A DNA stretch of 64,000 bases. Origin: Nocardioides dongkuii. Its GTDB lineage: Bacteria > Actinomycetota > Actinomycetes > Propionibacteriales > Nocardioidaceae. The position numbers were made by a program, and so were the translations under genes. Shown one piece after another: positions 2,678-17,587 of the stretch. Every line of letters starts with the position of its first letter. Position 1 is the first letter of the stretch. The notes under the pieces were generated by a model. That model made no database searches and had not been told where the DNA came from. It worked only from the letters and a program-made list of their open reading frames with translations. The stretch lies in contig NZ_CP059903.1 of the NCBI RefSeq assembly GCF_014127485.1, positions 248,001 through 312,000 of the forward strand, in the 5' to 3' direction.

Positions 2678-3496
2678 TCAGTCCTCCCCGAAGAGCAGCT
2701 CGGAGGCCCGGTCGTGCAGCGCGTGGAACTCCGGGGTGCGCATCAGGTCCGGCGTCCGCGGTCGCGGCAGGTCGACGTCGATGACCTCCTTCACGCGTCC
2801 GGGCCGCGCGCTCATCACCGCGACCTTGTCGGAGAGGAAGATCGCCTCGGAGATGCCGTGCGTGACCATCAGCGTGGTGGCGGGCTTCTCGGTCCAGATC
2901 CGCAGCAGCTCGACGTTCAGGCGCTGGCGGGTCATGTCGTCGAGGGCGCCGAACGGCTCGTCGAGGAGCAGCACGGACGGCCGCACCACCAGCGCACGGG
3001 CGATCGAGACCCGCTGGCGCATGCCGCCGGAGAGCTGGGCGGGCTTCGCGTTCTCGAAGCCCTCGAGCCCGACCAGCCGGACCAGCTCGGCGACCAGGTC
3101 CTCGTCCGGGGTACGGCCCGAGACCTGGAAGGGCAGCCGGATGTTGGAGACCACCGAGCGCCACGGCAGCAGCGCGGAGTCCTGGAAGGCGATCCCCAGC
3201 TCGTGGTCGCGGCGCAGCTCCAACGGGGTGCGGCCCTCGACCAGCGTGGTGCCGGAGGTGGGTTGCTCGAGGCCGGCGAGGATCCGCAGGATCGTGGACT
3301 TCCCGCACCCGGAGGGACCCAGGAGCGTCAGGAAGCTGCCCTTGTCGGTCCAGAGGTTGGCGTCCTCGAGGGCGGTCACCGAGCGGCGGCCGACCCGGAA
3401 GGTCTTGGTGAGGTGGTCGATCCGCACGCCGGTGCCGGTGGAGGCGGTGGCCTCCCCGGCACCGGCGCGCGTCGACGCCTGGGCGAGCTCGGACAT
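2678..3496 (-). CDS. ABC transporter ATP-binding protein, NitT/TauT type
   Basis: Cytosolic ATPase subunit that powers the importer, 272 residues, normal length for the SsuB/TauB family. Walker A is GPSGCGKST near residue 59, the signature is [15 protein letters not shown], Walker B is [13 protein letters not shown], and the switch His lies in [16 protein letters not shown]. The N-terminal roughly 20 residues are Ala/Thr/Gly-rich and probably disordered. ATG start at 3496; the lipoprotein gene ends one base upstream and the first permease begins directly after this stop. Family assignment is secure; the transported substrate is not identifiable from this subunit. Confidence 0.93.
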
Positions 3497-3497
3497 G

Positions 3498-4559
3498 TCA
3501 GGGCAGCTCCGTGAGCTCGGGCTTCTCCTCGAGCAGCTCCTCGAGCAGCGAGAGGTCGAAGAGGTCCTCGGCCTCGATCTCGATGCCGGCGGCCTCGAGG
3601 GTCGCCATGTTCTGCCCGATCAGGTCGTCGGTGATGGTGAACAGGCCGTTGGCCTCGACGTCGGGCGTCACGATCAGGCCGGTCTGCACCTCGGACTGCT
3701 CGACCTCCTTGGCCATGTCGAGCTTGAGGTCCTTGCCGTACTCCTCGACCGCCATCCGCGCGCCCTCCTCGGGATCGGCGAGGGCGTCCTGCCAGCCGCG
3801 GATCTCGGCCTCCAGGAAGGCCTTCACCTTGTCCGGCTCCTCCTCGATCATCCGGTCGGTGGTGATCACCGACTCGGCCACGAAGGGCAGGCCGTTGTCG
3901 GCGAAGGGCAGGTTGGTGACCTCGATCCCCTGCGCCTGGACGGTGATCGACTCGTTGGTCACGTAGGCCAGGAAGCCGTCGACCTCGCCGTCGAGCAGCG
4001 GGGCGGGGTCGTACTCCACCGGCACCTTCTCGACGTCCTCGGGGTCGATGCCGTTGACCTCGAGCAGGGCGTCGAAGAGGGTCTCGTTGCCGCCGGCCTG
4101 GACGCCGATCTTCTTGCCGACCAGGTCCTCCGGCGTGGCGATGTCGCCGCCGTCGGCCAGCGACAGGATCGTGAACGGGTTCTTCTGGAACTTGGTGCCC
4201 ACGATCTTCAGCGGGGCGTCCTCCTCGGCGATGACCTGGGCGGCGGAGACCGCGTTGCTCAGGCCGAAGTCGGCGTCCTCGGTGGCGACGAGGGTCTCGA
4301 TCGCGCCGGGGCCGGGGTCCATCGTCACCGAGCTGAACCCCACCTCCTCGTAGTAGCCCTCGCTGTCGGCGAAGAACTCGCCGGCGAACTCGGCGTTCTT
4401 GATCCAGGACAGCTGCAGGGTCACGGCCCCGAAGTCCGCCTCGCCGGTGCCCTCGGCGCCGGTGTCGGGGTCGCCGTCGTCCGACCCGCAGGCGGAGAGG
4501 GCGAGGACGGCGGTGGCCAGCAGGGCGCCGGCACGCGAGGCGCGCGTGCGTGAGGTCAT
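3498..4559 (-). CDS. Substrate-binding lipoprotein, NMT1/ThiY-like (ABC importer)
   Basis: Extracytoplasmic solute-binding lipoprotein of 353 residues. A twin-Arg-poor signal peptide ends in the lipobox LSAC with the acylated Cys at residue 24, followed by an Asp/Gly-rich linker. The mature part has the NMT1/SsuA/ThiY fold pattern: [20 protein letters not shown] at the start, the [11 protein letters not shown] loop, and the [11 protein letters not shown] segment. Its closest look is to ThiY-type and pyrimidine/purine-precursor binders rather than nitrate or taurine binders. ATG at 4559 is preceded by GGAG with a 7-nt spacer. It is the first gene of the transporter operon, and a GlnR-like double box lies 120-160 bp upstream. 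Import of a nitrogenous purine or its breakdown product is inferred from context only. Confidence 0.88.
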
Positions 4560-4743: not shown

Positions 4744-5211
4744 TCAGTAGTGCGTGCGGGCTTCGTGACCGAGCCAGGCCTGGAACGGCGCGAACCGGTC
4801 CGCGACCGGCGCCGCGGCGACCGCCATCGGCCAGGTGGCCCGGTCGCGCCCGAGCAGGTCGTAGAACGCGCGGTCGTCGAACCCGCCACGGGCGGCGTCG
4901 TCGCGGTCCGCGGCGTACACGACCCGGTCCAGCCGGGCCCAGAGCGCCGCCGACACGCACAGCGGGCACGGCTCGCAGGAGGTGAACAGGGTGCAGCCGA
5001 CCAGGGAGAAGTCCCGCAGCTCGGCGCAGGCCGCGCGGATCGCCACCACCTCGGCGTGCGCGGTCGGGTCGTGGTCGCGGGTCACCCGGTTGGTGCCGGT
5101 GGCGAGGACGGCGCCGTCGCGGACGACGAGCGCGCCGAACGGCCCGCCGCCGGCGGCGACGTTCTCCACGGCAAGCCGGACGGCGCGGTCGAGCCAGGCC
5201 TGGTCGGTCAT
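4744..5211 (-). CDS. guaD: Guanine deaminase (cytidine-deaminase-fold type)
   Basis: Converts guanine to xanthine plus ammonia in the cytosol, feeding xanthine dehydrogenase. The protein has 155 residues, matching the Bacillus subtilis GuaD type. Zinc and catalytic motifs are PTAHAEVVAIRAA (HAE) and SCEPCPLC (PCxxC). GuaD-specific hallmarks are GGFDDRAFYDLL and the C-terminal tail FQAWLGHEARTHY, whose final aromatic residue in this family closes over the partner active site of the domain-swapped dimer. ATG at 5211 overlaps the stop of the xanthine dehydrogenase gene (ATGA). It is the last gene of the purine operon. A generic nucleoside deaminase is the alternative, but the C-terminal signature argues for guanine. 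Confidence 0.9.
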   Translation of the reverse strand: MTDQAWLDRAVRLAVENVAAGGGPFGALVVRDGAVLATGTNRVTRDHDPTAHAEVVAIRAACAELRDFSLVGCTLFTSCEPCPLCVSAALWARLDRVVYAADRDDAARGGFDDRAFYDLLGRDRATWPMAVAAAPVADRFAPFQAWLGHEARTHY

Positions 5212-7847
5212 GCGTGCTCCTCGCGGGCCAGCCGCCACAGCCGGTCCCGGCTCATCGGCAGCTCGTGGGGGCGTACGCCGAGGGCGTCGCGGACGGCGTT
5301 CGCGACGGCGGGGGCGACCGGGTTGTACGGCGCCTCGCTCATCGACTTGGCGCCGTGCGGTCCGAGCACGTCGTAGGTGTCGGCGAAGAGCACCTCGGTC
5401 GTGGGCAGGTCCCCCATCTGCGGGACCCGGTAGTGCCGGAAGGTGCGGGTGGTCACCTCGCCGTCGACGACCCGCACCTCCTCGTAGAGGGCGCTGCCGT
5501 AGCCCTGCGCCACGCCGCCCTCGACCTGGCCGCGCAGCTGCTCGGGGTGGAGCGGCACCCCGGCGTCGACGGCCTGCACGGAGTGCAGGACGCGGAGCTC
5601 GCCGGTGGCGGGGTCCACGGCGACCCGCACGGCGTGCACGTTGAACGCGACCGACCGCGGGGAGCCGTGGTGCTCGCCGTGCCCGGTGACGACGCCGGTG
5701 GCGCCGGCGTCGAGCTGCTTGCGGAGGTCGCGGGCGGCGGCGAGGACCGCGCCGCCGGCGACCACCGAGCCGGTCGACCCGAAGGCGCCGGTGTCGTACG
5801 CCGCGGCTTCGGTGTCGCCGGAGCGCAGCCGGACGCGCGCGGGGTCGATGCCGAGCTCGCCGGCCACGAGCTGGACGTGGACGGTCGCGGTCCCGTTGCC
5901 GAACTCGGCGGTGCCGACGCCGACCGTGACGGTGTCGTCGTCCTCGCGCGTGACCGTCGCGTCGGCGTGGTGGCCGCGCGGCGGGATCGTGGCGATCATC
6001 GCGGCGGCGAGCCCCTCGCCGACCAGCCAGCCGTCGGGGACGGCGGGGGCGTCCGGGTCGGCCGGGTCGTCCGCGAGCGCCGCCTCGGCGAGGTCCAGGC
6101 ACTGGTCGAGCCCGTAGCTGCCGAAGACCAGGTCGGTGTCCGGGGCGCCGTTGACCACGAAGTCGTCCCCGGGACGGACGACGTTGCGGCGGCGTACCTC
6201 CGCGGGGGTGAGGCCGGCCTCGCGGGCCAGCTCGTCGAGGGCCGACTCGATCGCGAAGGCGACCTGGCCCAGGCCGTAGCCGCGGAACGCGCCCGAGGGC
6301 GGGTTGTGGGTGTAGACCGCCTCGGCGTCGACCCGCTTGCTGGCGCAGCGGTAGAGCGCCACCGACTCGTGGCAGCCGTGGAAGAGGACGCCGGGCGCGT
6401 GGTTGCCGTAGGCGCCGGTGTCGCTGAGGACGTCGAGGCGGATCGCGGTGAGGACGCCGTCGGCGTCGGCGCCCAGCTCGACCTCCACCCGCACCGGGTG
6501 GCGGCCGGGGACGAGCGTGAACTGCTCCTCGCGGGTGAGGTCGAGCTGGACCGGCCGGCGCACGCCCGCCTCCGCCAGCCGCAGCACGGCGAGCGCCACC
6601 ACGTCCTCGACGAGCATCTCCTGCTTGCCGCCGAAGCCGCCGCCGACCCGGCCGGTGGTGACCCGCACCCGGTCGGGGTCCAGCCCCAGCACGTGGGCGA
6701 GCTCGTCGCGGACCAGGAACGGCACCTGGGTGCTGCTGCGGACGACCAGCCGGTCGTCGTCGTCGAGCCAGGCGCGGGCGCCGTGGGTCTCGAGCGCGGC
6801 GTGGTTGACCCGTCCGCTGCGCCAGGTGCCGGCCACCCGGTGGGCGGCCGCGGCCAGGCCGGCGGCGACGTCGCCGACCTCGCCGTGCGTCCGGGCCACC
6901 ACGTTGCGGGCCGGGTCCGCGATCCGGGAGCGCGTCGCCGACTTCTCGCCGTGCACGAGCGGGGCGCCCGGGCGGCGGGCCTCCTCCGGGTCGTGGACGG
7001 CGGGCAGCACGTCGTACTCCACCCGCAGGAGGGCGAGCGCCTCCTCGGCGACGGCGAGGCTCTCGGCGACCACCGCGGCGACCCGCTGCCCCCGGAACCG
7101 GACGACGTCGTCGAGGAGCCGGGTGTCGTCGGGGTCGTCGAGCCGGCTGTCGTGGCGGGCGGTGGAGAACAGCACGTCCGGGGCGTCGCGGTGGGTCAGG
7201 ACGAGGCGGACGCCGGGGAGCGCCTCGGCGCGGCTGGTGTCGAGGGCGGTGATCCGGGCGTGCGCGTGCGGGCTGGTCAGCAGCTTCAGGTGCAGGACGC
7301 CGTCGGTGGGGAGGTCGAGGGTGTACGCCTCGCGCCCGGTGACGATCCGGGGCCCCGCCGGCGCCGGCGTCGAGCAGCCGACGGACCGCCCGTCGCCGCA
7401 GCCGCCCCCGACGTTGGTGCGCCCCGCGAGCGCGTCGCGGATCGACCGGTAGCCGGTGCAGCGGCACAGGTTGCCCTTGAACGCCGCCTCCAGGCCGTCG
7501 GCGGCCACGGTGCCGTCGGGGTCGGCGAGCGCGGTGGCGGTGACGACGTACCCGGCGGTGCAGAAGCCGCACTGGAACCCCTGGGCGTCGAGGAAGCGCT
7601 GCTGCACGGGGGAGGGCGCGTCCGGCGTGCCGAGGCCGTGGGCGGTGGTGACCTCGCACCCGGCCGCCCGGACGGCGGGGTGCACGCAGGAGTGCACCGG
7701 CACCCCGTCGACCAGGACCGTGCAGGCGCCGCAGTCGCCGGCGTCGCAGCCCTTCTTCACCGCCGTGGTGCCGGTCTCGCGCAGCCACGAGCGCAGGCAC
7801 TGCCCGGGGGCGGGCTCGCCGCGCACCGGCGTCCCGTCGACGATCAT
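5208..7847 (-). CDS. Xanthine dehydrogenase: fused [2Fe-2S] and molybdopterin subunits
   Basis: Oxidises hypoxanthine/xanthine to urate; 879 residues. Residues 1 to about 155 form the iron-sulfur part: a ferredoxin-type cluster motif CDAGDCGACTVLVDG, then the alpha-helical [2Fe-2S] domain with CGFC and CRCTGYR. From about residue 180 it is the molybdenum hydroxylase large subunit. It contains GGGFGGKQE, the AFRGYGLGQ loop (usually AFRGFG), and near the C-terminus GAKSMSEAP with the conserved catalytic Glu of the GxGE/SE region. The FAD domain is absent and encoded by the next gene upstream (7844-8617). This FeS-Mo fusion plus separate FAD protein differs from the R. capsulatus split (FeS-FAD / Mo) and from three-gene sets. 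ATG at 7847 overlaps the FAD gene by 4 bp. No XdhC-type cofactor-insertion gene is seen nearby. Confidence 0.9.
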   Translation of the reverse strand: MIVDGTPVRGEPAPGQCLRSWLRETGTTAVKKGCDAGDCGACTVLVDGVPVHSCVHPAVRAAGCEVTTAHGLGTPDAPSPVQQRFLDAQGFQCGFCTAGYVVTATALADPDGTVAADGLEAAFKGNLCRCTGYRSIRDALAGRTNVGGGCGDGRSVGCSTPAPAGPRIVTGREAYTLDLPTDGVLHLKLLTSPHAHARITALDTSRAEALPGVRLVLTHRDAPDVLFSTARHDSRLDDPDDTRLLDDVVRFRGQRVAAVVAESLAVAEEALALLRVEYDVLPAVHDPEEARRPGAPLVHGEKSATRSRIADPARNVVARTHGEVGDVAAGLAAAAHRVAGTWRSGRVNHAALETHGARAWLDDDDRLVVRSSTQVPFLVRDELAHVLGLDPDRVRVTTGRVGGGFGGKQEMLVEDVVALAVLRLAEAGVRRPVQLDLTREEQFTLVPGRHPVRVEVELGADADGVLTAIRLDVLSDTGAYGNHAPGVLFHGCHESVALYRCASKRVDAEAVYTHNPPSGAFRGYGLGQVAFAIESALDELAREAGLTPAEVRRRNVVRPGDDFVVNGAPDTDLVFGSYGLDQCLDLAEAALADDPADPDAPAVPDGWLVGEGLAAAMIATIPPRGHHADATVTREDDDTVTVGVGTAEFGNGTATVHVQLVAGELGIDPARVRLRSGDTEAAAYDTGAFGSTGSVVAGGAVLAAARDLRKQLDAGATGVVTGHGEHHGSPRSVAFNVHAVRVAVDPATGELRVLHSVQAVDAGVPLHPEQLRGQVEGGVAQGYGSALYEEVRVVDGEVTTRTFRHYRVPQMGDLPTTEVLFADTYDVLGPHGAKSMSEAPYNPVAPAVANAVRDALGVRPHELPMSRDRLWRLAREEHA

Positions 7848-8617
7848 GCGGCGGCCCCCCGGAGCTCCGCGACGACCTGGCGGGCGAGCGTGGCGGTCAC
7901 CGACGCGCGCCAGTCGGGGGCGCCGTGCGGGTCGTCGTACCAGCAGTCGACCGCGGCGAGCCCCTCCTCGAGACGCCCCGCGGCGAGCACCACGGGCCGG
8001 GTGGTGGCAGCGGTGACGGTCACCCGGTCGCCGACGCCGATGACCACCGCCGAGGACCGACCGTGCGGCGTGAGCGCGATCCGGCGGAACGCCGTGGGCG
8101 CGGCCAGCGCGTCGAGGGGTACGTCGACCGCGCGCAGCACCTCGCCGGGGGCCAGGGAGGTGTCCCGGACGCCGCGCACCAGCTCGGCGACCGGCTCGCG
8201 CCGCTCCCCGCCGCCGGGGGTCCAGACGACGGCGGTCCCGTCGAGTGCCGCGGCGAGCGAGGTCATCGCGCCGGCCGGCAGCGCCAGCGCGATGTTGCCG
8301 CCGACGGTCGCGGCGTGCTGGATCTTGAACGACATGAGGAAGGCATCGGCGGCCGCCCGGACCAGCGGGGCGAGCCTGCCGAGGAGCGGCGAGGAGACCA
8401 GCTCGGCGACGGTGCAGGTGGCGGCGATGCGCAGGGTCCCCCCGACGACCTCCACCGGAGGCCAGCCCAGCGCGGTCAGGTCGACCAGCCCCGAGGTGCC
8501 GGGCTGGGGCTCGGAGAAGAGCCAGGTGCCGCCGGCGAGGAGCGTCTCGCCGGGGGCCAGCCGGAGCTCGTCGCGGTCGGCGGGGCGCCGGAACGAGCGC
8601 ACCGTGTGCAGGTCCAT
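7844..8617 (-). CDS. Xanthine dehydrogenase FAD-binding subunit
   Basis: FAD subunit of the molybdenum hydroxylase, passing electrons from the FeS clusters to NAD or another acceptor; 257 residues. It shows the PCMH-type FAD-binding motif LLAGGTWLFSE (residues about 25-35; usually AGGTDL) and the second FAD loop IQHAATVGGNIALALPAGAM. A CO-dehydrogenase flavoprotein C-terminal domain follows. ATG at 8617 overlaps the stop of the regulator gene by one base, and its end overlaps the FeS-Mo subunit by 4 bp, so the two XDH proteins are made together. The Asp of AGGTDL is Trp-Leu here, a family variation to note. Confidence 0.9.
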   Translation of the reverse strand: MDLHTVRSFRRPADRDELRLAPGETLLAGGTWLFSEPQPGTSGLVDLTALGWPPVEVVGGTLRIAATCTVAELVSSPLLGRLAPLVRAAADAFLMSFKIQHAATVGGNIALALPAGAMTSLAAALDGTAVVWTPGGGERREPVAELVRGVRDTSLAPGEVLRAVDVPLDALAAPTAFRRIALTPHGRSSAVVIGVGDRVTVTAATTRPVVLAAGRLEEGLAAVDCWYDDPHGAPDWRASVTATLARQVVAELRGAAA

Positions 8618-9423
8618 CACTCCACCTCCCCGAGCGCGGCGTAGGTGCGGCTGATGGCGCTGACCCGGTCCCGGGCGGGCCGGCCGCGGGCCGACAGCAC
8701 GGCGTCGGCGAGCACGCTGACCAGGCTCATCGCCGCGGCGTAGCTGTCGAAGGCCAGGCCGCCCTGGACCGGGCACTCCAGCCACACGCCGGCCCGGCGG
8801 GCCAGCGGCAGGGCGGTCGGGTCGGCGACCAGCACGACGTCCGCGCCGGTCGCGCAGGCGGCGTCGAGGAACTCCGCGAAGCCCTGGGGTCGGCGCCGGA
8901 ACCCGACGACGACCACGGCGTCGCCGGGCCCGAGGTCGGCGAGCTCCTCGCCCAGGACCTGGCCGGGCAGCGGCGCGAGGGTCACCCCCGCCCGGGCCTG
9001 CACCAGCTGCTGGCGCAGGTGCAGGGCGACCGGGTGGCTGTTGCGCCAGCCGACCACCAGCAGCCGGCCGGCTCCGGCGAGCAGGAGCGCGGCGTCCCGG
9101 AGCGCCGCCTGGGAGACGGTGCGCGCGATCGCCTCGCCCTCGACGGCGACGTGCACGGCGAGGTCGGGGCTGCCGTCCACCCGGCGGGGCTCGCCCGCCG
9201 TGCGCAGCGCCCGCAGGTGCTCGCGCACCTCGTCGAAGTCGGCGAAGCCCAGGCTGCGGAACAGCCGGCTCATGGTCGCCTTGCTGACGCCGGCGAGCGT
9301 GGCGAGCTCGGCGGCGCGGTACGTCGCGAGGTCGTCGAGGTGCTCCAGCAGGGTGGCCGCCGCCTTCTGCTCCTGGGGCGACAGGTCGCCGTGCGCATGC
9401 GCGATCCGCTCGTCGATCCTCAC
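8617..9423 (-). CDS. MurR/RpiR-family transcriptional regulator
   Basis: Likely the local regulator of purine breakdown; 268 residues. The N-terminal 75 residues form an RpiR-type helix-turn-helix (LATLAGVSKATMSRLFRSLG). Residues about 125-250 form a SIS (sugar isomerase) domain with the ligand loop LLVVGWRNSHPVALHL and the GDAVVVVGFRRRP segment. The GTG at 9423 overlaps the allantoate amidohydrolase stop (GTGA). RpiR proteins usually sense phosphosugars, but members of this family sit inside ureide and purine operons (for example AllR/PucR analogues are of other families), so a purine intermediate as ligand is an inference. Encoded in the middle of the operon, it would be autoregulated. Confidence 0.87.
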   Translation of the reverse strand: MRIDERIAHAHGDLSPQEQKAAATLLEHLDDLATYRAAELATLAGVSKATMSRLFRSLGFADFDEVREHLRALRTAGEPRRVDGSPDLAVHVAVEGEAIARTVSQAALRDAALLLAGAGRLLVVGWRNSHPVALHLRQQLVQARAGVTLAPLPGQVLGEELADLGPGDAVVVVGFRRRPQGFAEFLDAACATGADVVLVADPTALPLARRAGVWLECPVQGGLAFDSYAAAMSLVSVLADAVLSARGRPARDRVSAISRTYAALGEVE

Positions 9424-10679
9424 GCCGCGCCCCCCGCCGCCCGGGCGTCGACGTCGCGGGCCACGGCCAGCACGGCCTGCTCGAGCGCGGCGATGCCGCG
9501 CGCGACGTCGATCTCGCGGACGTCCTCCGCCGGGTGGTGGCTGATCCCGTCGTGGCAGCGCAGGAAGAGCATGCCGACGTCGGTCACGGCGGCGAGCGCC
9601 ATCGCGTCGTGACCCGCCCGGCTCCACAGGCCCGGCGGCGACGGCTGGCCGGTGCTGCGGATCCCGTCGACCACCGCGCGCTGCAGCCAGGGGGCGCACG
9701 GGGCCGCCGGGGCGGAGTGCGTCTCGACCACCTCCAGCCGGAGGCCGCGGTCGGTGCAGAGGCCGACGGCGGCGGCCTGCATCCGCTCCCACATGGCGTC
9801 GCGCACCGCGTCGTTCGCCGCGCGCAGGTCGAGGGTGAGGTCGACCCGGCCCGGCACCACGTTCACCGCGCCCGGCGAGACCTCCAGCCGCCCGACCGTC
9901 GCGATGCAGCCGTGGTCGCCGGTGGCGCGGGCGAGCCGCTCGATGGCGGTCACCACCTCGCTGGCGCCGACGAGCGCGTCCCGCCGCCGGGAGTACGGCG
10001 TCCCGCCCGCGTGCCGGGCCTCGCCGAGCACGGTCAGGTGGAACCGGCGCGCGCCGGCGATGGTCGTGACGTAGCCGAGGGAGGCGTCGGCGGCCTCCAG
10101 GTGCGGCCCCTGCTCGATGTGCGCCTCGAGGTAGCCGACGAGCTCCTCGGGCCGCCGGGCCGCCCCGCCGACCCGGTCCGGGTCCAGCCCGAAGTCGCGG
10201 AACGCCTGCGCCAGGGTGGTGCCGTCGCGGTCCCGCAGCGCCCACCAGGCGTCGTCCCAGGTGCCGGCCAGCGCCCGGCTGCCGAGCAGCGCGGTGCCGA
10301 ACCGGGCGCCCTCCTCGTCGCCGAAGCCGACCACCTCCAGCGCGAACGGGAGGCCGGCGGTGTCCCGGAGGCGCTCGACGACGGCGAGGGCCATGACCAC
10401 GCCGAGCGGGCCGTCGTACCGCCCGGCGTCGGGGACGGTGTCCAGGTGCGATCCGAGCAGCAGCGCCGGCAGCCCGGGGGTGCGGCCCTCCCGCCGGCCG
10501 CACTGGTTGCCCGCCCCGTCCTGCCACGGCCGCAGGCCGGCCTCCTGCATCCAGTCGGCGACCAGCGCGTTGGCGCGGGCGTGCTCGGGGGTGAGGTGCA
10601 CCCGCTCGAGCGCGTCCGGCCGGCTGCTGAGCGTCGCGAGCTCGGCGCAGCGGGCGAGCGCCCGGGCCTCGGCGCTCAC
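9420..10679 (-). CDS. allC: Allantoate amidohydrolase (M20 family)
   Basis: Hydrolyses allantoate to ureidoglycine, CO2 and ammonia; a dimeric metallo-amidohydrolase of the M20/AllC-UAH-beta-ureidopropionase family, 419 residues. Metal and catalytic positions visible are GSHLDTVPDAGRYDG (His, Asp), FGDEEGARF (Glu-Glu), EAHIEQGPHLE (His) and CHDGISHHPAE (C-terminal His). The dimerisation/substrate segment is ARHAGGTPYSRRRDAL. N-carbamoyl-amino-acid hydrolases share these motifs, but the place between pucG and the XDH genes makes allantoate the likely substrate. GTG start at 10679 overlaps pucG by 4 bp. PucG needs the ureidoglycine this enzyme releases, so their coupling is functional as well as genetic. 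Confidence 0.88.
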   Translation of the reverse strand: MSAEARALARCAELATLSSRPDALERVHLTPEHARANALVADWMQEAGLRPWQDGAGNQCGRREGRTPGLPALLLGSHLDTVPDAGRYDGPLGVVMALAVVERLRDTAGLPFALEVVGFGDEEGARFGTALLGSRALAGTWDDAWWALRDRDGTTLAQAFRDFGLDPDRVGGAARRPEELVGYLEAHIEQGPHLEAADASLGYVTTIAGARRFHLTVLGEARHAGGTPYSRRRDALVGASEVVTAIERLARATGDHGCIATVGRLEVSPGAVNVVPGRVDLTLDLRAANDAVRDAMWERMQAAAVGLCTDRGLRLEVVETHSAPAAPCAPWLQRAVVDGIRSTGQPSPPGLWSRAGHDAMALAAVTDVGMLFLRCHDGISHHPAEDVREIDVARGIAALEQAVLAVARDVDARAAGGAA

Positions 10680-11890
10680 GCGTAGACCTCGCGCGCGGCG
10701 CCGACCCCGCCGCCGGCGGTCAGGGGTACGCCGGCCGCGCGCAGCACCTGCTCGAGCGCGGCCAGGGTGGTGAGGACCGCGTCGCGGCGGGCGTTGTGGC
10801 CCATCGTCCCGATCCGCCAGACCCTGCCGTGCAGGGGGCCGAAGGAGGTGCCGATCTCGATGCCGTAGTCCTCCAGCAGGGCCGCCCGGGCCCGGTCGCC
10901 GTCGACGCCGTCGGGGATCTCGACCGCGACCACGTTGTGCATCTTGTGGGCGACGTCGCCGAAGACCGCGAGCCCGAGCCCGCGGACCCCCTCGAGCATC
11001 GCCCGCCCGTGCCGCTCGTGGCGTGCCACGGCCTCGTCCAGGCCCTCGTCGACGAGCAGCCGGGCGCACTCGCGGGCGCCGTACAGCATCGTGGTGGCCT
11101 CGGTGTGGTGGTTGAGGCGGCGCGGCCCCCAGTAGTCCATGACCTGCGCGAGGTCGAGGTAGTTGCTGGCGATCCGGGTGCCGCGGCCCTGCTCGCCGTC
11201 CGCCCGGATACCGGCCTCGACGTGCTTGCGGGCGTCCACCACGGCGACCGCGCGCGGGGAGAGCGTGATCGGCGCGCTGCCCGACGGCCCGCCGAGGCAC
11301 TTCTGCAGCCCGGCCGTCACGACGTCGAGGCCCCAGGCGTCGGTCTCCAGCAGGTTCCCGCCGAGCGAGGCCGTGGCGTCGACGTAGAGCAGGGCGTCGT
11401 GGCGCCGGCAGATCTCGCCGAGGTCAGCGAGCGGCTGGCACATCGTGGTGGAGGTGTCGCCCTGCACCGTGGCCACGAGCTTGGGCCGCACCGCGGCGAC
11501 CGCCGCCTCGAGCTGCTCCGGCGCGAACACCTCGCCCCACGGCACCTCGACGGTGTGCACCTCGGCCCCGCACCGCTCGGCGATCTCGACCAGCAGGTGC
11601 CCGAACCGCCCGAGCACCGGCACCAGCACCCGGTCGCCGGGCTCGAGCAGCGAGACCAGCGCGGCCTCGATGCCGGCGCGGGACGTGCCGTCGACCAGGA
11701 GGGTCTGCTCGTTGCGGGTGCGGAACACCTCGCGGTAGAGCGCCATCGTCTCGGTCATGTACGCCGTCATCGCGGGGTCGTACTGCCCGACCAGCTGGGC
11801 CGACATCGCCCGCAGGACGCGGGGGTCGGCGTTGACCGGCCCCGGCCCCATCAGCAGCCGCGGCGGCGGGTCGACCTGGGCGGTCCTCAT
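10676..11890 (-). CDS. pucG: (S)-ureidoglycine-glyoxylate aminotransferase
   Basis: PLP enzyme that transfers the amino group of ureidoglycine to glyoxylate, giving oxalurate and glycine; 404 residues. The protein is strikingly like B. subtilis PucG along its length: GPGPVNADPRVLRAMS, QLVGQYDPA (the Gln is typical of PucG rather than alanine-glyoxylate transaminase), DGTSRAGIEAALVSLLEPGD, GRFGHLLVEIAERCGA and RRLNHHTEATTMLYGARE. The PLP lysine lies in TAGLQKCLGGPSG. ATG at 11890 overlaps allantoinase by 4 bp. No ureidoglycine aminohydrolase (AllE) gene is in the operon, so the PucG branch is the only visible outlet for ureidoglycine, and it predicts that oxalurate must be handled. Confidence 0.93.
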   Translation of the reverse strand: MRTAQVDPPPRLLMGPGPVNADPRVLRAMSAQLVGQYDPAMTAYMTETMALYREVFRTRNEQTLLVDGTSRAGIEAALVSLLEPGDRVLVPVLGRFGHLLVEIAERCGAEVHTVEVPWGEVFAPEQLEAAVAAVRPKLVATVQGDTSTTMCQPLADLGEICRRHDALLYVDATASLGGNLLETDAWGLDVVTAGLQKCLGGPSGSAPITLSPRAVAVVDARKHVEAGIRADGEQGRGTRIASNYLDLAQVMDYWGPRRLNHHTEATTMLYGARECARLLVDEGLDEAVARHERHGRAMLEGVRGLGLAVFGDVAHKMHNVVAVEIPDGVDGDRARAALLEDYGIEIGTSFGPLHGRVWRIGTMGHNARRDAVLTTLAALEQVLRAAGVPLTAGGGVGAAREVYA

Positions 11891-13215
11891 CGGTCCCTCG
11901 CGATCGTCCGGCCCCAGCCGTGGTCGGCCTCGAGCCGGCCGCGCAGGAGGGTGTGGGTGACCCGGCCGGCGAGCCGGAGCCCGTCGTACGCCGTCACCGG
12001 GTTGCGGTGGGCGAGCGCCGCGGCGTCCACCGCGGTCACCGCCGCGGGGTCGTGGACGACGAGGTCGGCGTCGGCGCCGACGGCGATCCGGCCCTTGGCG
12101 TGGAGCCCGACGAGGTCGGCGGTGCCGGTGGCCATCCACCGGGCGACGTGCTCGATGCCGACGCCGCGGGCGGCCGCCTCGGCCGCGACGGCGGTGAAGC
12201 CGACCTGCAGGCCGGAGACGCCGCCCCAGGCCTGCTGGAGGTCGCCGCCGCCGCGGGTCTTCTCCTCGACCGTGGCGGGGGAGTGGTCGGAGACGACGAC
12301 GTCGATGACGCCGGCGAGCAGCGCCTGCCAGAGCTCGTCGCGGTTGCCGGCGTCGCGGATCGGCGGGCAGCACTTGAACTGCGGCGCGGCGTCGGGGATG
12401 GAGCCCGCGTCCAGGCACAGGTAGTGCGGGCAGGTCTCGACCGTGACCGGGAGGCCCTCGGCCCGGGCGTCGGCGAGCAGGTCGAGCGCCCGCGCGCTGG
12501 AGAGGTGCAGGACGTGCACCCGCGCGCCGGTCGCGCGGGCCCCGTCGAGGACGCGGCGGATCGCGGCGGTTTCCGCCTCGTCGGGCCGGGAGAGGAGGAA
12601 GTCGGCGTACGCCGGGCTCGGCGGGTGCGGGGCGGCCTCCAGCACGCCGGGGTCCTCGGCGTGGACGACGAGCAGGGCGTCCAGCCGCTCCACCTCGGCG
12701 AGCGCGGCCGCGAACCCGGCGTCGTCGAGCGGCGGGAACTCCTCGACCCCCGACGGCGAGAGGAAGCACTTGAAGCCCAGGACGCCCGCCTCGTGCAGCG
12801 GCTCGAGGTCGGCGAGGTTCCCCGGCACGGCCCCGCCCCAGAACGCGACGTCGACGGCGAGCTGCCCGTCGGCCGCCTCCTGCTTGGCGCGCAGCCCGGC
12901 CACCGTGGTGGTGGGCGGCACGGAGTTGAGCGGCATGTCGACGAGCGTCGTGACGCCGCCGAGGTGCGCGGCGCGGGTGCCGGTCGCGAACCCCTCCCAG
13001 TGCGTGCGGCCGGGCTCGTTGACGTGCACGTGGGTGTCCACCACCCCGGGCAGGACGCACGAGCCGTCCGGCACCTCGAGCACCCGCCCCTCGAGGGGGT
13101 GGTCGAGCGGATGGACGCCGGTGATCCGGCCCTCGGCGACCGTGACGGTGGCGGGCCGCAGCGTCCCGTCGACCAGCACCCGCTGGGCGCGCACCGCCGC
13201 GACCGCGCCGGTCAC
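11887..13215 (-). CDS. allB: Allantoinase
   Basis: Cyclic amidohydrolase opening the allantoin ring to allantoate; 442 residues, usual for AllB. Binuclear zinc motifs are VDTHVHVNEPGRTHWEGF (HxH), the bridging Lys in LGFKCFLS, His in VVHAED, His in LHLSSA and Asp in VVSDHSPAT. The TCPHYL segment is typical of AllB/hydantoinase-type enzymes. The GTG start at 13215 overlaps the uricase stop as GTGA. Dihydropyrimidinase and dihydroorotase are family relatives, but the NEPGRTHWEGF motif plus neighbours favour allantoinase. Confidence 0.93.
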   Translation of the reverse strand: MTGAVAAVRAQRVLVDGTLRPATVTVAEGRITGVHPLDHPLEGRVLEVPDGSCVLPGVVDTHVHVNEPGRTHWEGFATGTRAAHLGGVTTLVDMPLNSVPPTTTVAGLRAKQEAADGQLAVDVAFWGGAVPGNLADLEPLHEAGVLGFKCFLSPSGVEEFPPLDDAGFAAALAEVERLDALLVVHAEDPGVLEAAPHPPSPAYADFLLSRPDEAETAAIRRVLDGARATGARVHVLHLSSARALDLLADARAEGLPVTVETCPHYLCLDAGSIPDAAPQFKCCPPIRDAGNRDELWQALLAGVIDVVVSDHSPATVEEKTRGGGDLQQAWGGVSGLQVGFTAVAAEAAARGVGIEHVARWMATGTADLVGLHAKGRIAVGADADLVVHDPAAVTAVDAAALAHRNPVTAYDGLRLAGRVTHTLLRGRLEADHGWGRTIARDR

Positions 13216-14132
13216 GCGAACCCCGCCACGGTCGCCCAGGCCCGCGGCTCGCGGGCGTCGCCCTCGCGCTCGACGGTCGCCTGGATCAGCCCGTAGGGAC
13301 GGTCCGCGGCGAGGAACACCTCGCCCGGGTTGTCCAGCCCGAACGGCGCCAGGTCGACCAGGAAGTGGTGCTTGTTGGGACAGGACAGCCGGACCTCGGC
13401 GATCCCGGGGAAGGCCTCCAGGACCGCCCGGCCCATCGCGAAGATGGTCTGCTGCAGGGCGAGGGAGTGCAGGTCCGCGAAGGTGGCGAGCAGCAGGTCG
13501 CGCACCGCGGCGTACGTCGCGTCGAAGTCGTCCGGGAGCGCGGCGTACCGCCACCAGGCTGTGACCTCGGTGGCCAGGATCCGGTCGTCGGTCTCCGGGA
13601 GGGTCGTGTAGCGGTCGCGGGGGAAGCCGTGGAACTCCGATCCGGTCGACTTCAGCACCGTGCAGTCCTTGAGCCCGCTGACGACGAAGACCTCGTCGCC
13701 GTCGCGCTGCACCACGGTCGTGCGGGTCTCGCGGCCGGGGCGCACGAAGGAGTGGTCGTGCGGGGCGCCGTCGACGACGATCCGGTCCCAGGCGTGCTGC
13801 TCGGCCTCCCAGCGGCCGCCGCTGACCCACGGGAAGCCGTCGACGAAGTGGTCGGCCAGCCGCAGCAGGAAGGCCTCGGGCGCGCCGACGCCGTGCTCGC
13901 GGGCGAAGGCGTAGACGGTGTTCTTCTGGGTGTCGGTGGCCACCACCTGGCTGTTGTCGCCGTCGGTGTGGCACGCAGCGAAGTCGCCGCGCAGCTGCGA
14001 GGTGACGGTCAGGTCGGTGATCCGGTGCCTTCCCGTGGTCGAGGCTGTCGAGACCCCTCGGTCGACCCGGACCAGGCGGCACTCCGCCTTGCCGTACTGG
14101 TTCTCGCCGAGGACGACGTCGCCGCGCGCCAT
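13212..14132 (-). CDS. Urate oxidase (uricase) with a short repeat-derived insertion
   Basis: Cofactor-free oxidase converting urate and O2 to 5-hydroxyisourate and H2O2; 306 residues as two T-fold domains. Recognisable uricase motifs are LGENQYGKAE (catalytic Lys), ATDTQKNTVYAFAREHG (the Thr-Lys-Asn active-site segment), LKDCTVLKSTGSEFHGF (Phe stacking on urate), and LSCPNKHHFLVDL near the C-terminus. Between RLVRVDR and HRITDLTV there are about nine extra residues, GVSTASTTG. They are encoded by a GGTCTCGAC...CTCGACCAC palindromic repeat (14035-14055) that has been accommodated in frame. This is a surface beta-hairpin region in known uricases, so activity may be retained (inference). ATG at 14132 overlaps the uraH stop by one base. 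Confidence 0.93.
   Translation of the reverse strand: MARGDVVLGENQYGKAECRLVRVDRGVSTASTTGRHRITDLTVTSQLRGDFAACHTDGDNSQVVATDTQKNTVYAFAREHGVGAPEAFLLRLADHFVDGFPWVSGGRWEAEQHAWDRIVVDGAPHDHSFVRPGRETRTTVVQRDGDEVFVVSGLKDCTVLKSTGSEFHGFPRDRYTTLPETDDRILATEVTAWWRYAALPDDFDATYAAVRDLLLATFADLHSLALQQTIFAMGRAVLEAFPGIAEVRLSCPNKHHFLVDLAPFGLDNPGEVFLAADRPYGLIQATVEREGDAREPRAWATVAGFA
14035..14055. repeat. Short dispersed palindromic element inside uricase
   Basis: The plus strand reads GTGGTCGAG then GCT then GTCGAGACC. Both ends match the outer ends of the larger element at 59928-59983 in the rhamnose operon. Inside uricase it is in frame and adds about nine residues at the point where homologues run directly from RVxR to HxI. 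Confidence 0.65.
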
Positions 14133-14428
14133 CAGCTGCCCTTGTACGTCGTGTAGGCGAACGGGCTGAGCAGCAGCGCCACGTGGTGGTGCGGCTCGGT
14201 CGCGTCGACGGTGAAGTCGACGCGGACCACGGGGTGGAAGGCGGTGGCCGTGGCGAACGTCAGCGCGTGGTGCCCGCCGGGGAGGTCGGTGTCGAAGCGC
14301 GCCCGACCGTCGGCGTCGGTGACGCCGCGCGCCAGCTCGGCGCCGGCACCGTCGGCGAGGACGACCTCGATCCCGGCCGCCGGGGCGCCGGCGGCGGCGT
14401 CGAGGACGTGGGTGGACAGGGTGGTCAC
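14132..14428 (-). CDS. uraH: 5-hydroxyisourate hydrolase
   Basis: Transthyretin-like enzyme hydrolysing 5-hydroxyisourate to OHCU; 98 residues, slightly shorter than the usual 105-115. The N-terminal signature LSTHVLDAAAG (catalytic His), the central ARFDTDLPGGHHAL, HPVVRVDFTV with HHHVALLLSPFAYTTY, and the C-terminal tetrapeptide YKGS (family YRGS) are all present. GTG at 14428 overlaps uraD as GTGA and the stop overlaps uricase. Order uraD-uraH-uricase is a compact urate-to-allantoin module. Confidence 0.93.
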   Translation of the reverse strand: MTTLSTHVLDAAAGAPAAGIEVVLADGAGAELARGVTDADGRARFDTDLPGGHHALTFATATAFHPVVRVDFTVDATEPHHHVALLLSPFAYTTYKGS

Positions 14429-14916
14429 GCGAAGAGCCCCCTCAGCCGCAGCGCGGCGATCTCGGCGAGCTCGCCGCGGGTGACCCCGAGCTCGGTGGTC
14501 GGGTCGTTCCCGAGGCGCTGCTCGAGCCGGGCGAGCACCTCCTCGGCGCTGCGTCCGGCGGCCCGGATGAGGAACACCCGCCCGAACCGCTCCTCGTACG
14601 CCGCGTTGCCGGCCGCGATCCGCTGTTGCAGGTCCGCCTCGGTCGAGACGCCGGACTGCTCGCGCGCCGACATGGCGGCGCTCGCGCCGGTGCCGGCGTG
14701 CCGCTCGCCGATCCGCGGGTGGTCGGCCAGGGCCAGCTCGACCTCGTCGTCGGTCCACGCCGCCGCCAGCCGCTCGGCGTGCGCGACCAGGGCGTCGACG
14801 TCGGGGTAGGGCCGGCCGGCGACGAGCGCGTCGACCCAGGACGGGATGTCGGCGCAGGGCCGGACCAGGTCGGCCGCCGCGGCCTGGTCCATCGCGTTGA
14901 GCTGCTCGATCCGCAC
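14425..14916 (-). CDS. uraD: OHCU decarboxylase
   Basis: Decarboxylates 2-oxo-4-hydroxy-4-carboxy-5-ureidoimidazoline to (S)-allantoin; 163 residues. The catalytic His sits in LADHPRIGE, with the REQSGV and FGRVFLIRAAGRS segments that line the active site. Two GTG codons are possible: 14922 would leave no space after the GGAAGGAG ribosome site (14922-14929), whereas GTG at 14916 gives a 5-nt spacer and is preferred. It is separated from the upstream amidase gene by about 75 bp containing a GlnR-like box, so a second promoter may start here and drive the rest of the purine operon. Confidence 0.9.
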   Translation of the reverse strand: MRIEQLNAMDQAAAADLVRPCADIPSWVDALVAGRPYPDVDALVAHAERLAAAWTDDEVELALADHPRIGERHAGTGASAAMSAREQSGVSTEADLQQRIAAGNAAYEERFGRVFLIRAAGRSAEEVLARLEQRLGNDPTTELGVTRGELAEIAALRLRGLFA

Positions 14917-14978: not shown

Positions 14979-14994
14979 ATTTCGGTGGCGTTAC
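14979..14994 (-). promoter_or_regulatory. GlnR-like box upstream of uraD
   Basis: On the minus strand the sequence is GTAAC-GCCACC-GAAAT, one base off the GTnAC-N6-GaAAC GlnR pattern with exact spacing. It lies 62-78 bp upstream of the chosen uraD start, pointing toward uraD, and overlaps the last codons of the amidase gene. Confidence 0.5.
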
Positions 14995-16508
14995 GGTCGC
15001 GGCGCCTGCGTTTCAGCCGCGAGCCGGAGCAGGTCCTGGTCGCGCCCGGCGGCCGCGACCAGGCAGGCGCCGGCGGGCAGCCCGCCCGCCTGCACCGGCA
15101 TGGTGACGGCGGGGAGCCCCGCGAGCCCGGCCAGGCAGGTGAGGCGCAGCGTGGCCTCGCGGGTCGCCGCGACGTCGTCACCGACGCGCGGCGCCACCGA
15201 GGACGCCGCGGGGAGCAGCAGCACCCGTCTCCCGACCAACGACCGCACCGCGGCCCGCGCCCCGCGCGCGACGGCCCGGGCCGCGTCGGCCTGCCCGTCG
15301 GTGACCGTGCGGGCGTGCTCGAACCGGCCGCGCACGTCGGGTCCGAGCACGTCCAGCCGGCCCTCGAGCCAGGCGCCGTGCGACTGCCAGGCCTCCCAGG
15401 CCTGCACGGTCCGGAACGCGTCCAGCCAGCGGTCCAGGTCGCCGAGCGGCCACTGCTCCACGGTGGCCCGGCGGCCGCCCGGGACCGCCGTGCGGACCGC
15501 GGCCGCGACCGCCGGCTCGGCCAGGCGGAGCAGCTGGGGGACCAGCACGACCTCGTCGGTGCCGGCCCGGTCCTCGTCGGCCGGGGGCAGCAGCACCTCG
15601 CCGACGGCGGCGAGCGTCGCGGCGTCCCGGGCCAGCCACCCGACCGCGTCGTACGACGGCGCGAGCGGCACCAGCCCGTCGACCGGCACCGCGCTGTGGG
15701 TGGTCCGGATCCCGAAGAGCCCCTGGTACGCCGCCGGCACCCGGATCGAGCCGCCGGTGTCGGTGCCGAGCCCGATCGTCGCGTGCCCGAGGGACACCGC
15801 CGTCGCGGAACCGGAGGACGAGCCGCCGGGGAGCCGGTACGGCGCGCGCGGGTTCGGCGGGGTGCCCGTGTGGTGGTTGGCGCCGGCCAGCGACCAGGCG
15901 AGCTCGTCGGTGCGGGCGATCCCGCGGACGTCGGCCCCGGCCTCGAGCAGCCGGGCCACCGCGTGCGCGTGCTCGCCGGCGGTCGGCGAGGTGGCCAGCC
16001 AGGCGGGGTTGCCGGCCCCGGTGCGGTGGCCGGCGACGGCGTACAGGTCCTTGACGGCGACGCTCTGCCCGGCGAGCGGGCCGTCGCCGCTCCCGGGGAC
16101 GAGCGGGTCGCCGACGACCCGCCAGACGCGGGTGTCGAGCGCGGGGGCGGGGACGGAGACGTGGGCGGCGGTGACCTGCCAGCCGTCCGGGCCGCGGGCC
16201 CACAGCTGGGTCTGCTGGCCGCGGCCGCCGCGCTCGAGCTCGGTGACGGCGACGACGAGCGCGTGGTCCTCGTCGATGGTCTGCACGTGGGTCTGCACCA
16301 GGCGCCGCCGGGGGGCGCCGCCGCGGCTCCCGCGGAACGCGCTGATCGCCTCGTGGCCGACCAGCAGGCCCTGGGCGTCGCCGCGCAGGGTGGTCGGGCC
16401 GGGGGCGAAGAGCCGGTCCAGGGCCGGGACGTCGTCCTCCATCAGCGCGCGCTCGTAGTCCCGGAACGCCTCGACGAGACCGGCGGGGACGGGAGTCGGG
16501 GCGCTCAC
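14991..16508 (-). CDS. AtzH/HpxZ-like domain fused to AtzE/HpxY-type amidase
   Basis: Amidase-signature hydrolase of 505 residues with an extra N-terminal domain. Residues 1 to about 120 look like an AtzH/SnoaL-like (DUF3225, HpxZ-type) fold: LVEAFRDYERALMEDD, TTLRGDAQGLLVGHEAISAF, then QTIDEDHALVVAVTELER. From about residue 145 comes the amidase-signature domain: catalytic Lys in SVAVKDLYAVAG, the GGSSSGSA loop, and the cis-Ser/nucleophile region GLGTDTGGSIRVPAAYQG. In Klebsiella the hpxWXYZ oxalurate genes encode these two families as separate proteins. Here they are fused and lie in the same operon as pucG, which makes oxalurate. Oxalurate hydrolysis is therefore the leading hypothesis; another carbamoyl or biuret-like amide is possible. 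GTG at 16508 overlaps the upstream gene by 4 bp. Confidence 0.85.
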   Translation of the reverse strand: MSAPTPVPAGLVEAFRDYERALMEDDVPALDRLFAPGPTTLRGDAQGLLVGHEAISAFRGSRGGAPRRRLVQTHVQTIDEDHALVVAVTELERGGRGQQTQLWARGPDGWQVTAAHVSVPAPALDTRVWRVVGDPLVPGSGDGPLAGQSVAVKDLYAVAGHRTGAGNPAWLATSPTAGEHAHAVARLLEAGADVRGIARTDELAWSLAGANHHTGTPPNPRAPYRLPGGSSSGSATAVSLGHATIGLGTDTGGSIRVPAAYQGLFGIRTTHSAVPVDGLVPLAPSYDAVGWLARDAATLAAVGEVLLPPADEDRAGTDEVVLVPQLLRLAEPAVAAAVRTAVPGGRRATVEQWPLGDLDRWLDAFRTVQAWEAWQSHGAWLEGRLDVLGPDVRGRFEHARTVTDGQADAARAVARGARAAVRSLVGRRVLLLPAASSVAPRVGDDVAATREATLRLTCLAGLAGLPAVTMPVQAGGLPAGACLVAAAGRDQDLLRLAAETQAPRP

Positions 16509-17587
16509 CGGGCGCTCCCTGGGCTCGCGGGGAAGTCCGACTTCCGGATCCGGGCGTGCACGCCCTTCACCACGTCGACCACCTGGGAGATCTCGAAGTC
16601 GGTCGCGGCGCTGAGGTAGGCGTACGCGAGCCGGCGGTCCATGCCGTACGCCGCGCCCAGCAGCGCGATCGCGGCGCGGACGCAGTTCTGGACCGCCACG
16701 TCGAGGTCGGGGTCCATCCCGGTCGGCACCAGGTGCTCGGCGGTCTCTGCGAGCGGCCCGGCGAGCTCGCCGAACCGGCGTACCGCCTCCTCGCGGGGGA
16801 CGACGTCGAGGCGCACCGTCGCCCGCAGCGGCGCCTCCATCGCGGTCAGCGAGACCTCCCCGTTCCCCTGCGCGAAGTGCGGGTCGCCGACGTACGCCAG
16901 GGCGCCGGGGACCTGGACGGGGAGGTAGAGCGTGGCGCCGACGGTGAGCAGGTTGATGTCGACGTTGCCGCCGTGCGGCCCGGGCGGCACCGAGTGCGGC
17001 CGCTCGCCGCCCGGCACGGCCACGCCCATGATGCCGAGGAACGGCGCGAGCGGGAACGCCACCGTCGGCTCGGCGTCCGGGCGCAGGGGAAGGAGCCCGG
17101 ACGCGCCGTCGTCGCTGACGCGGGCGAAGACCGAGAAGCAGGGCGCGGCGTCGAGCGGGTACTCGCCGGGCAGCGCGCCGCGGCCGTGCCGGTTGGAGAT
17201 CACGCCGTACGGCACGCGGGGCAGGGTCTCCACGACGGTCATCGCGAGCAGGTCGCCCGGCTCGGCGCCCGCGACGCGCACCGGGCGGGAGACGACGTGC
17301 GGGCCGTCGACGCCGAAGACCCGCGGCAGGTCGCTCGCCGCCACCGCCACGGCGTCCTCGAGCACGTCGTGCACGCCGTGCTCGCCGAAGTAGCGGCGCG
17401 GGTCGCGGCCCTGGTCCTCGAGGATCCCCTCGTGGCTGACGGTGTCGAAGGTGACCTCGGTCCCCGGGTCGACGGTGAGCACCGGGTCGTCCGCCGCGCA
17501 CGGCAGCCGGCCCCACAGGACGTGCTCGGGGCTCGCCGGGAGGTAGGTCGAGGACCGGATCGGGCCGACGCCGGGCTGCAGGATCAC
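16505..17587 (-). CDS. Acetamidase/formamidase family protein
   Basis: Metal-dependent amidase of the FmdA/AmdA family releasing ammonia from small amides; 360 residues from the chosen start. Family features include DPGTEVTFDTVSHEG, GPHVVSRPVRVAGAEPGDLLAMTVVE, GIMGVAVPGGE, PGPHGGNVDINLLTVGATLYLPV, ALAYVGDPHFAQGNGEVS and the C-terminal YLSAATDFEISQVVD. The frame stays open upstream to 17683, but that would overlap the divergent methyltransferase gene. GTG at 17587 starts the conserved region and stands 7 bp after a TACGGT -10-like box, suggesting a leaderless transcript. In this operon a natural substrate such as formamide, oxamate or another amide from ureide breakdown is plausible but unproven. 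Confidence 0.85.
   Translation of the reverse strand: MILQPGVGPIRSSTYLPASPEHVLWGRLPCAADDPVLTVDPGTEVTFDTVSHEGILEDQGRDPRRYFGEHGVHDVLEDAVAVAASDLPRVFGVDGPHVVSRPVRVAGAEPGDLLAMTVVETLPRVPYGVISNRHGRGALPGEYPLDAAPCFSVFARVSDDGASGLLPLRPDAEPTVAFPLAPFLGIMGVAVPGGERPHSVPPGPHGGNVDINLLTVGATLYLPVQVPGALAYVGDPHFAQGNGEVSLTAMEAPLRATVRLDVVPREEAVRRFGELAGPLAETAEHLVPTGMDPDLDVAVQNCVRAAIALLGAAYGMDRRLAYAYLSAATDFEISQVVDVVKGVHARIRKSDFPASPGSAR

Follow-up and report, generated by a model that had tools for sequence, protein, structure and literature searches.

Among the closest described counterparts of the locus considered here is the Klebsiella hpx system, whose oxalurate branch consists of HpxJ and HpxWXYZ. A further reference is AtzH, which is thought to decarboxylate 1,3-dicarboxyurea and serves below as the analogy for a fused AtzH-like domain. 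According to passages in published work, an enterobacterial ggt-atzG-atzE-atzH cluster lies near transaminase and allantoate amidohydrolase genes (PMC6219798), HpxW converts oxamate to oxalate and ammonia (as cited in PMC5270733), and the Escherichia coli oxamate transcarbamylase AllFGH also converts oxalurate to oxamate (PMC11326118). In a 64,000-nucleotide stretch of the genome of the soil actinobacterium Nocardioides dongkuii (positions 248,001 to 312,000 of contig NZ_CP059903.1, assembly GCF_014127485.1; hereafter the window), the minus strand encodes an amidase with an AtzH-like N-terminal domain (hereafter the fusion) and, adjoining it, an FmdA-family amidase, within an operon for uric-acid breakdown. 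The fusion and its partner very probably finish this breakdown through a putative conversion of oxalurate to oxalate and ammonia, and we put at roughly 70% the probability that the pair carries out the final steps of a uric-acid pathway that forms oxalurate, the substrates, the first bond cut and the step order being predicted ones. This assignment is supported by the domains, the retained catalytic and pocket residues, the operon, the co-occurrence with PucG, and the replacement of single parts by HpxW-like or split HpxZ forms. The features on which it turns are the following (window coordinates):

16505-17587, minus strand: FmdA/AmdA-family amidase of 360 residues, proposed oxamate amidohydrolase (PF03069, 102.2 bits; cut-off 27).
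14991-16508, minus strand: AtzH-like domain fused to a PRK08310-like amidase, 505 residues, GTG start (PF11533 and PF01425), proposed oxalurate amidohydrolase/N-carboxyoxamate decarboxylase.
16152-16490, minus strand: AtzH-like domain of the fusion, from the whole-genome profile match at contig positions 264152-264490, aligned to 6bjt/6d63.
15027-16085, minus strand: amidase-signature domain of the fusion (PF01425), with the triad Lys153, Ser230 and Ser254.
10676-11890, minus strand: PucG, ureidoglycine-glyoxylate aminotransferase, the proposed oxalurate source (632 bits to 3nnk, 440 bits to 3isl).

The first-pass annotation, made from the sequence alone, had placed an AtzH/HpxZ-like domain at about residues 1-120 of the fusion, and a profile search agrees: PF11533 matches residues 8-119 with 91.7 bits (cut-off 27; E 4e-26), in one open frame with the PF01425 match. 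This part aligns with AtzH (6bjt, 6d63) and with the structural-genomics relatives 2rcd and 2owp, so placing the equivalent of AtzH Tyr22 at Tyr18 (16455-16457) and that of Arg46 at Arg42 (16383-16385); equivalents of Arg63, Arg66, Arg73, Gln106 and Gln108 are also present, and Arg96 and Phe94 find no clear match in the alignment. The abstract of PMC6219798 states that Tyr22 and Arg46 are required for AtzH catalysis; a later passage of the same paper leaves the role of Arg46 open. The HpxZ equivalog NF033625 scores 81.9 bits against a cut-off of 135, and AtzH chains are absent among the structure matches listed for the fusion model, where amidase-domain matches fill the listing. Judged by profile and alignment, the N-terminal domain is AtzH-like.

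Relatives were compared in two sets, the best 80 of 593 relatives, biased to close ones (the named loci), and the window together with other survey genomes (G loci, n = 54); L075 and L076 gave no amidase match and enter no tally. The residue counts leave out L100, L106, L110, L140, L147 and L150 as repeats of G genomes, the truncated L165, and L109, which was set aside as a repeat of G152 and is actually a close relative from a different genome. On this basis, the equivalents of Tyr22, Arg46, Arg63, Arg66 and Arg73 are kept in 75/75 PucG-linked domains and in 17/17 FmdA-linked domains without PucG, and all seven tested pocket residues are kept in 65/75, 17/17 and, among solo copies, 7/15. The solo fusions L070-L074, from the window's genus, have no FmdA or PucG nearby; the Arg46 equivalent is lost in L071-L074 and at least one pocket arginine in all five. 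Seventeen of 110 positions are invariant in 74 PucG-linked fusions, and these include six of the seven tested pocket residues (hypergeometric p 3.7e-5). Such constraint argues against the possibility that, in place of AtzG/HpxX, the AtzH domain serves only solubility or dimerisation, without catalysis, and is no decarboxylase. This idea, which overlaps the other readings considered below, so that their odds need not sum to one, would fit a locus too tight to hold an AtzG/HpxX gene next to the pair, and the absence of the domain from some lineages; those same lineages, however, suggest that the amidase can do without AtzH, and a purely non-catalytic role appears doubtful.

The amidase half was expected to be an AtzE/HpxY-like amidase-signature domain, an expectation of which only the broader part holds. 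PF01425 matches residues 142-494 with 165.5 bits (cut-off 27), and the Lys-Ser-Ser triad, assigned through what we take to be the amidase-signature pattern, is intact in the window and in 139/141 loci. Membership of AtzE/HpxY was rejected, since the subfamily models score far under their cut-offs (TIGR02715, 155.7 against 425.75 bits; NF006631, 168.2 against 461). The nearest profile is PRK08310 (NF006169), at 389.7 bits only 1.3 bits short of its cut-off of 391; of seven relatives scanned with this model, five lie above it (415.8-484.7) and two below (351.2 and 341.2). At subfamily level the amidase half is thus PRK08310-like by profile score, not AtzE/HpxY. In the AlphaFold (AF2) model of the fusion (mean predicted local distance difference test score 92.6, predicted template modelling score 0.81), the amidase finds its top fold match in 6c62/6c6g (Z 47.2 over 380 residues, root-mean-square deviation 2.2), presumably AtzE; 6c62 is practically tied with 2dc0 (Z 46.7) and malonamidase E2 (Z 46.5). 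In L068, from the same genome as L147, the fusion amidase carries Gln-Ala-Gly in place of the triad and is probably inactive.

The link to oxalurate comes from PucG. Among solved structures, the window's protein is nearest to the ureidoglycine-glyoxylate aminotransferase 3nnk and to PucG 3isl, the best alanine-glyoxylate aminotransferase reaching 298 bits, which bears out the earlier naming of this gene. The accompanying statement that no AllE-type alternative is present is likewise upheld: no AllE exceeds the cut-off in the window's genome, where the best cupin scores 22 bits against 200. A clear PucG without AllE makes oxalurate the expected product. Across 60 PucG genomes (43 Nocardioidaceae, G511, G538 and 15 of the 54 PucG-linked named loci), AllE is over cut-off in one, Microbacterium barkeri.

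A survey of 197 Nocardioidaceae genomes, with PucG counted at E 1e-100 or better and lists compared by hand, found the AtzH-like domain in 44 and PucG in 43; both occur in 34, PucG alone in nine, AtzH alone in ten and neither in 144 (Fisher p 4.7e-21, related genomes not being independent). The same amidase, lacking AtzH, is present in six of the nine genomes with PucG alone, which brings the amidase to 40 of 43 PucG genomes; it occupies the operon slot in G006, G103, G132 and G155, and in G166 and G186 an FmdA-amidase pair lies away from the PucG operon. In a sample of 396 genomes of the phylum, the window's included, eight exceed the AtzH cut-off and five are strong fusions, four with PucG nearby and the fifth, G483, without; two of the four, L092 and L093, have a rearranged order and are placed with Microbacterium in the tree. 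Linkage was followed in the fetched flanks, in tallies that contain repeats (L100, L106, L110, L140, L147 and L150 come from genomes also among the G loci). The fusion is present in 46/54 G loci, with PucG in the flank of 31 of these and FmdA of 33, and in 66/80 named loci, with PucG in 49 and FmdA in 54. The fusion thus does not occur mostly without pucG, as it should not if the first-pass annotation was right to couple the two as parts of an oxalurate hydrolase system; that linkage stands, with the qualification that the pair also occurs where no PucG was found. Among 81 PucG-linked AtzH-bearing loci the commonest order (29/81) is FmdA-fusion-UraD-5-hydroxyisourate hydrolase-uricase-AllB-PucG-AllC-RpiR; AllB-FmdA-fusion-PucG-AllC and others recur, to a total of 25 strings, some differing just where a stretch ends. 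Chance placement of the fusion beside PucG was rejected on this co-occurrence and linkage across gene orders. Searches of open-licence papers listed no published description of the fusion together with PucG. Two observations on individual records stand apart: L118, recorded as Planococcus sp. APC 4015, sits among Microbacterium-type rows in gene order and tree and its name may be wrong, and L080, L081 and L082, from one genus, have PucG operons without this amidase or FmdA, with a gamma-glutamyltranspeptidase (GGT)-family gene beside allantoinase that is about 27% identical to the HpxW-like protein of Marinimicrobium described below.

In the window, the minus-strand order runs from FmdA and the fusion through UraD, 5-hydroxyisourate hydrolase, uricase, allantoinase, PucG, allantoate amidohydrolase and RpiR to probable xanthine dehydrogenase genes. 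The remaining members are:

14425-14916, minus strand: 2-oxo-4-hydroxy-4-carboxy-5-ureidoimidazoline (OHCU) decarboxylase, UraD (TIGR03180, 176.5 bits; cut-off 139.4).
14132-14425, minus strand: 5-hydroxyisourate hydrolase (PF00576, 77.6 bits, cut-off 25.3; equivalog TIGR02962, 78.2 bits, below its cut-off of 87.45).
13212-14132, minus strand: uricase (TIGR03383, 364.7 bits; cut-off 168.4).
11887-13215, minus strand: allantoinase AllB (TIGR03178, 534.9 bits; cut-off 357.85).
9420-10667, minus strand: allantoate amidohydrolase of the M20 family (NF006775, 520.7 bits; cut-off 479).
8617-9420, minus strand: RpiR-family regulator (PF01418 and PF01380).
7844-8617, minus strand: molybdenum hydroxylase flavin adenine dinucleotide (FAD) subunit, probably of xanthine dehydrogenase (PF00941, 61.8 bits).
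5208-7847, minus strand: molybdenum hydroxylase whose single chain carries both the Fe-S and the Mo part, a probable xanthine dehydrogenase (PF01799, PF01315, PF02738, PF20256).

The domains of 5208-7847 were read from a longer frame, for which the best NCBIfam models, XdhA and XdhC, both stay below cut-off. The FmdA stop and the fusion start overlap by 4 bases, and the gaps between the fusion and UraD and between FmdA and the divergent upstream gene are both under 90 bases; at this locus, the part of the genome searched for it, a gene for AtzG/HpxX, the obligate partner of AtzE/HpxY amidases, cannot fit beside the pair. Downstream of the xanthine dehydrogenase genes, at 1889-4559, lies an NMT1/THI5-type ATP-binding cassette transporter (binding protein, ATPase and permease), a possible purine or ureide importer. 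The uricase has an in-frame extra of about 6 residues at 14035-14057, common to its neighbour L036, at a site where a gap of at least 6 is seen in 54 of 65 aligned uricases; the insert resembles a mobile or repeat-type insertion, yet the window holds a single copy of its 23-base pattern.

The FmdA-family partner is not a canonical formamidase, an identity rejected on a score of 68.1 bits against a cut-off of 500 for the equivalog NF045496. It is present in 72 of the 81 PucG-linked AtzH-bearing loci and in 21 of the 25 gene-order strings, and loci with FmdA, AtzH and PucG span Nocardioides, Blastococcus, Microbacterium, Curtobacterium, Demequina, Psychromicrobium and Millisia; the nine loci without FmdA include Rothia and Cellulomonas. 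Of 89 AtzH-bearing loci that have FmdA, 84 carry it immediately upstream in the same orientation (six genomes counted twice). In Alicyclobacillus L174, an FmdA-family gene (11197-12213; 143 bits, below the 150-bit line) directly follows an AtzH-less amidase, and the genome has a PucG (53% identity) at another place.

A suggestion as to what FmdA does comes from operons in which its place is taken. In Marinimicrobium L179 the order is amidase (without AtzH), GGT family, TauE, PucG and AllC, and in Cellvibrio L176 amidase, GGT family, PucG and AllC follow one another in the same order. The best solved relative of both GGT-family proteins is 5hft, an entry labelled gamma-glutamyltranspeptidase that we take to be Klebsiella HpxW; for the Cellvibrio protein one 5hft chain scores 245 bits against 240 for 2nlz. 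FmdA and a GGT-family hydrolase (at least 150 bits) occur together on one stretch in 0/141 loci, and to judge by these sequences FmdA and the HpxW-like protein appear to fill one slot. The replacement by a 5hft-like protein in two gammaproteobacterial operons therefore supports the earlier suggestion that FmdA cleaves oxamate, in which the slot is the part now backed and the substrate the part still predicted. The GGT-family gene of Rhizobium L186 was rejected as HpxW-like, being closer to 2nlz than to 5hft. Plasmid records (31 matched, 20 listed, seven opened) add a split form: the seven opened loci comprise one fused, three with hpxZ, two without hpxZ and one without annotation. On the Caballeronia, Azospirillum and Roseomonas plasmids the amidase adjoins an hpxZ-annotated gene of its own, and those of Azospirillum and Caballeronia also have genes of xanthine dehydrogenase type close by; this split arrangement ties the amidase to HpxZ independently.

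On the pathway that we favor, ureidoglycine and glyoxylate would react at PucG to give glycine and oxalurate, whose terminal ureido amide would then be hydrolysed by the amidase domain of the fusion. The products would be ammonia and N-carboxyoxamate; the AtzH-like domain would accelerate the loss of CO2 from this unstable carbamate to give oxamate. FmdA, unrelated to HpxW but filling the same role, would release a second ammonia from oxamate and leave oxalate.

Several observations weigh against this pathway. One concerns urease. Were the amidase to cut the inner (oxalyl) amide, the products would be oxalate and urea, with another role for FmdA and a structural AtzH domain. The window's own genome has urease (urease alpha over cut-off), which is compatible with urea release there, and AtzH-less amidases hold the operon place, so that decarboxylation is not strictly required. 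Urease is over cut-off in just 17 of the 60 PucG genomes, however, the window's among them, and this counts against a urea-forming cleavage; the inner-amide cut would moreover leave the frequent FmdA partner and its HpxW-like replacement unexplained and would not account for the strong constraint on the AtzH pocket, and we regard it as quite unlikely. Other observations concern genomes in which a part is missing: G182 and G152 (among 26 of the 197 genomes) carry PucG and the fusion without FmdA at 1e-20, and the FmdA-less genomes tested have no close HpxW-like gene, just actinobacterial matches at 27-36% identity. The PucG genomes G049, G064 and G070 lack a close amidase, a close FmdA and a close HpxW, so that another route probably exists. 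For PRK08310, no measured activity of a member was found, in literature that was searched under other names.

A second group of adverse observations concerns pairs without PucG. Searches found no PucG in genomes of Streptomyces, Pseudonocardia and Amycolatopsis that carry the FmdA-fusion pair, and a Rhodococcus plasmid stretch has the pair without PucG; PucG may therefore not be the sole source of substrate. At annotated plasmid loci of Variovorax and Rhizobium, the amidase is accompanied by neither hpxZ nor PucG. Of 27 genomes without PucG in the flank, seven have a clear PucG (at least 53% identity) elsewhere, two a 42% match and 18 none, and the scanned neighbours of PucG-less copies point to no single alternative pathway. 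Creatininase-family genes lie near the amidase at the PucG-less L133, L136, L178 and L183 and may mark another substrate source. These copies, some near creatininase, isochorismatase or NMT1-type genes, are what would be expected if the main substrate of the pair were a different small amide, ureido or dicarboxylic, and the pair served purine operons as a general scavenger of nitrogen, and the closeness of the amidase fold to malonamidase E2 and allophanate hydrolase points the same way. That role is nonetheless improbable given the tight link to PucG through rearranged operons, the HpxZ- and HpxW-like partners in other phyla, and pocket residues that drift in solo copies alone, the Gln106 position excepted.

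The last adverse point is that several lineages with PucG linkage retain the amidase and lack the AtzH domain. In a quick tree (41/130 inner branches open; identical sequences, L165 and L057 left out), AtzH-less rows are nested in fused rows at at least three places, namely G006 with G166 and G186 (support 99), G132 with G155 (99), and Bifidobacterium with Nesterenkonia (93), which makes loss likelier than late gain. An essential AtzH domain was rejected, AtzH-less amidases being nested among fused ones and kept in PucG operons. Carbamate decarboxylation, which can proceed unaided, is the kind of catalysed step that would be compatible with a domain held under constraint while present and nevertheless open to loss. 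One PucG operon, in L069, has its AtzH and amidase halves in separate frames (about 8679-10260), which could reflect a split gene, a decayed gene or a sequence error. Going beyond the favored assignment, we propose tentatively, at somewhat less than even odds, that the fusion is a bifunctional enzyme whose AtzH site receives the carbamate produced at the amidase site and decarboxylates it, and that the whole of the widespread PRK08310 group, with its swapped FmdA-, HpxW- and HpxZ-type partners, makes up a second oxalurate pathway, so far unrecognised, in actinobacteria and in some of the proteobacteria and Bacillota.

If oxalurate is indeed the substrate, the PucG branch of uric-acid breakdown in actinobacteria gains a testable end, and likely substrates can be suggested for PRK08310, just "amidase" in NCBIfam with no function named, and for a divergent FmdA group. 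The fused, split and missing forms also provide a natural series for asking what AtzH/HpxZ proteins do.

Compared with known systems, the locus shares with Klebsiella hpx a PucG/HpxJ-type aminotransferase that feeds an amidase, an AtzH/HpxZ-type protein and an oxamate hydrolase, but differs in that the amidase is PRK08310-like, no adjacent AtzG/HpxX gene has room, the HpxZ part is fused or missing, and an FmdA-family protein stands in place of HpxW. As in the AtzE-AtzG-AtzH system of Pseudomonas ADP (1-carboxybiuret to allophanate), the amidase product would go to an AtzH decarboxylase, but the window amidase falls far under the AtzE subfamily cut-off and, unlike in that system, no cyanuric acid hydrolase is found among the operon proteins scanned. 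E. coli AllFGH transfers the carbamoyl group to phosphate and uses other proteins, whereas hydrolysis is proposed for the fusion. With FmdA formamidase and AmdA acetamidase the window FmdA has PF03069 in common, but its score lies far from the formamidase equivalog and its proposed substrate is oxamate. Context gives good support to the view of the fusion-FmdA pair as a variant of the hpx-type oxalurate branch in which one part is fused and two have given way to proteins that are unrelated or only distantly related.

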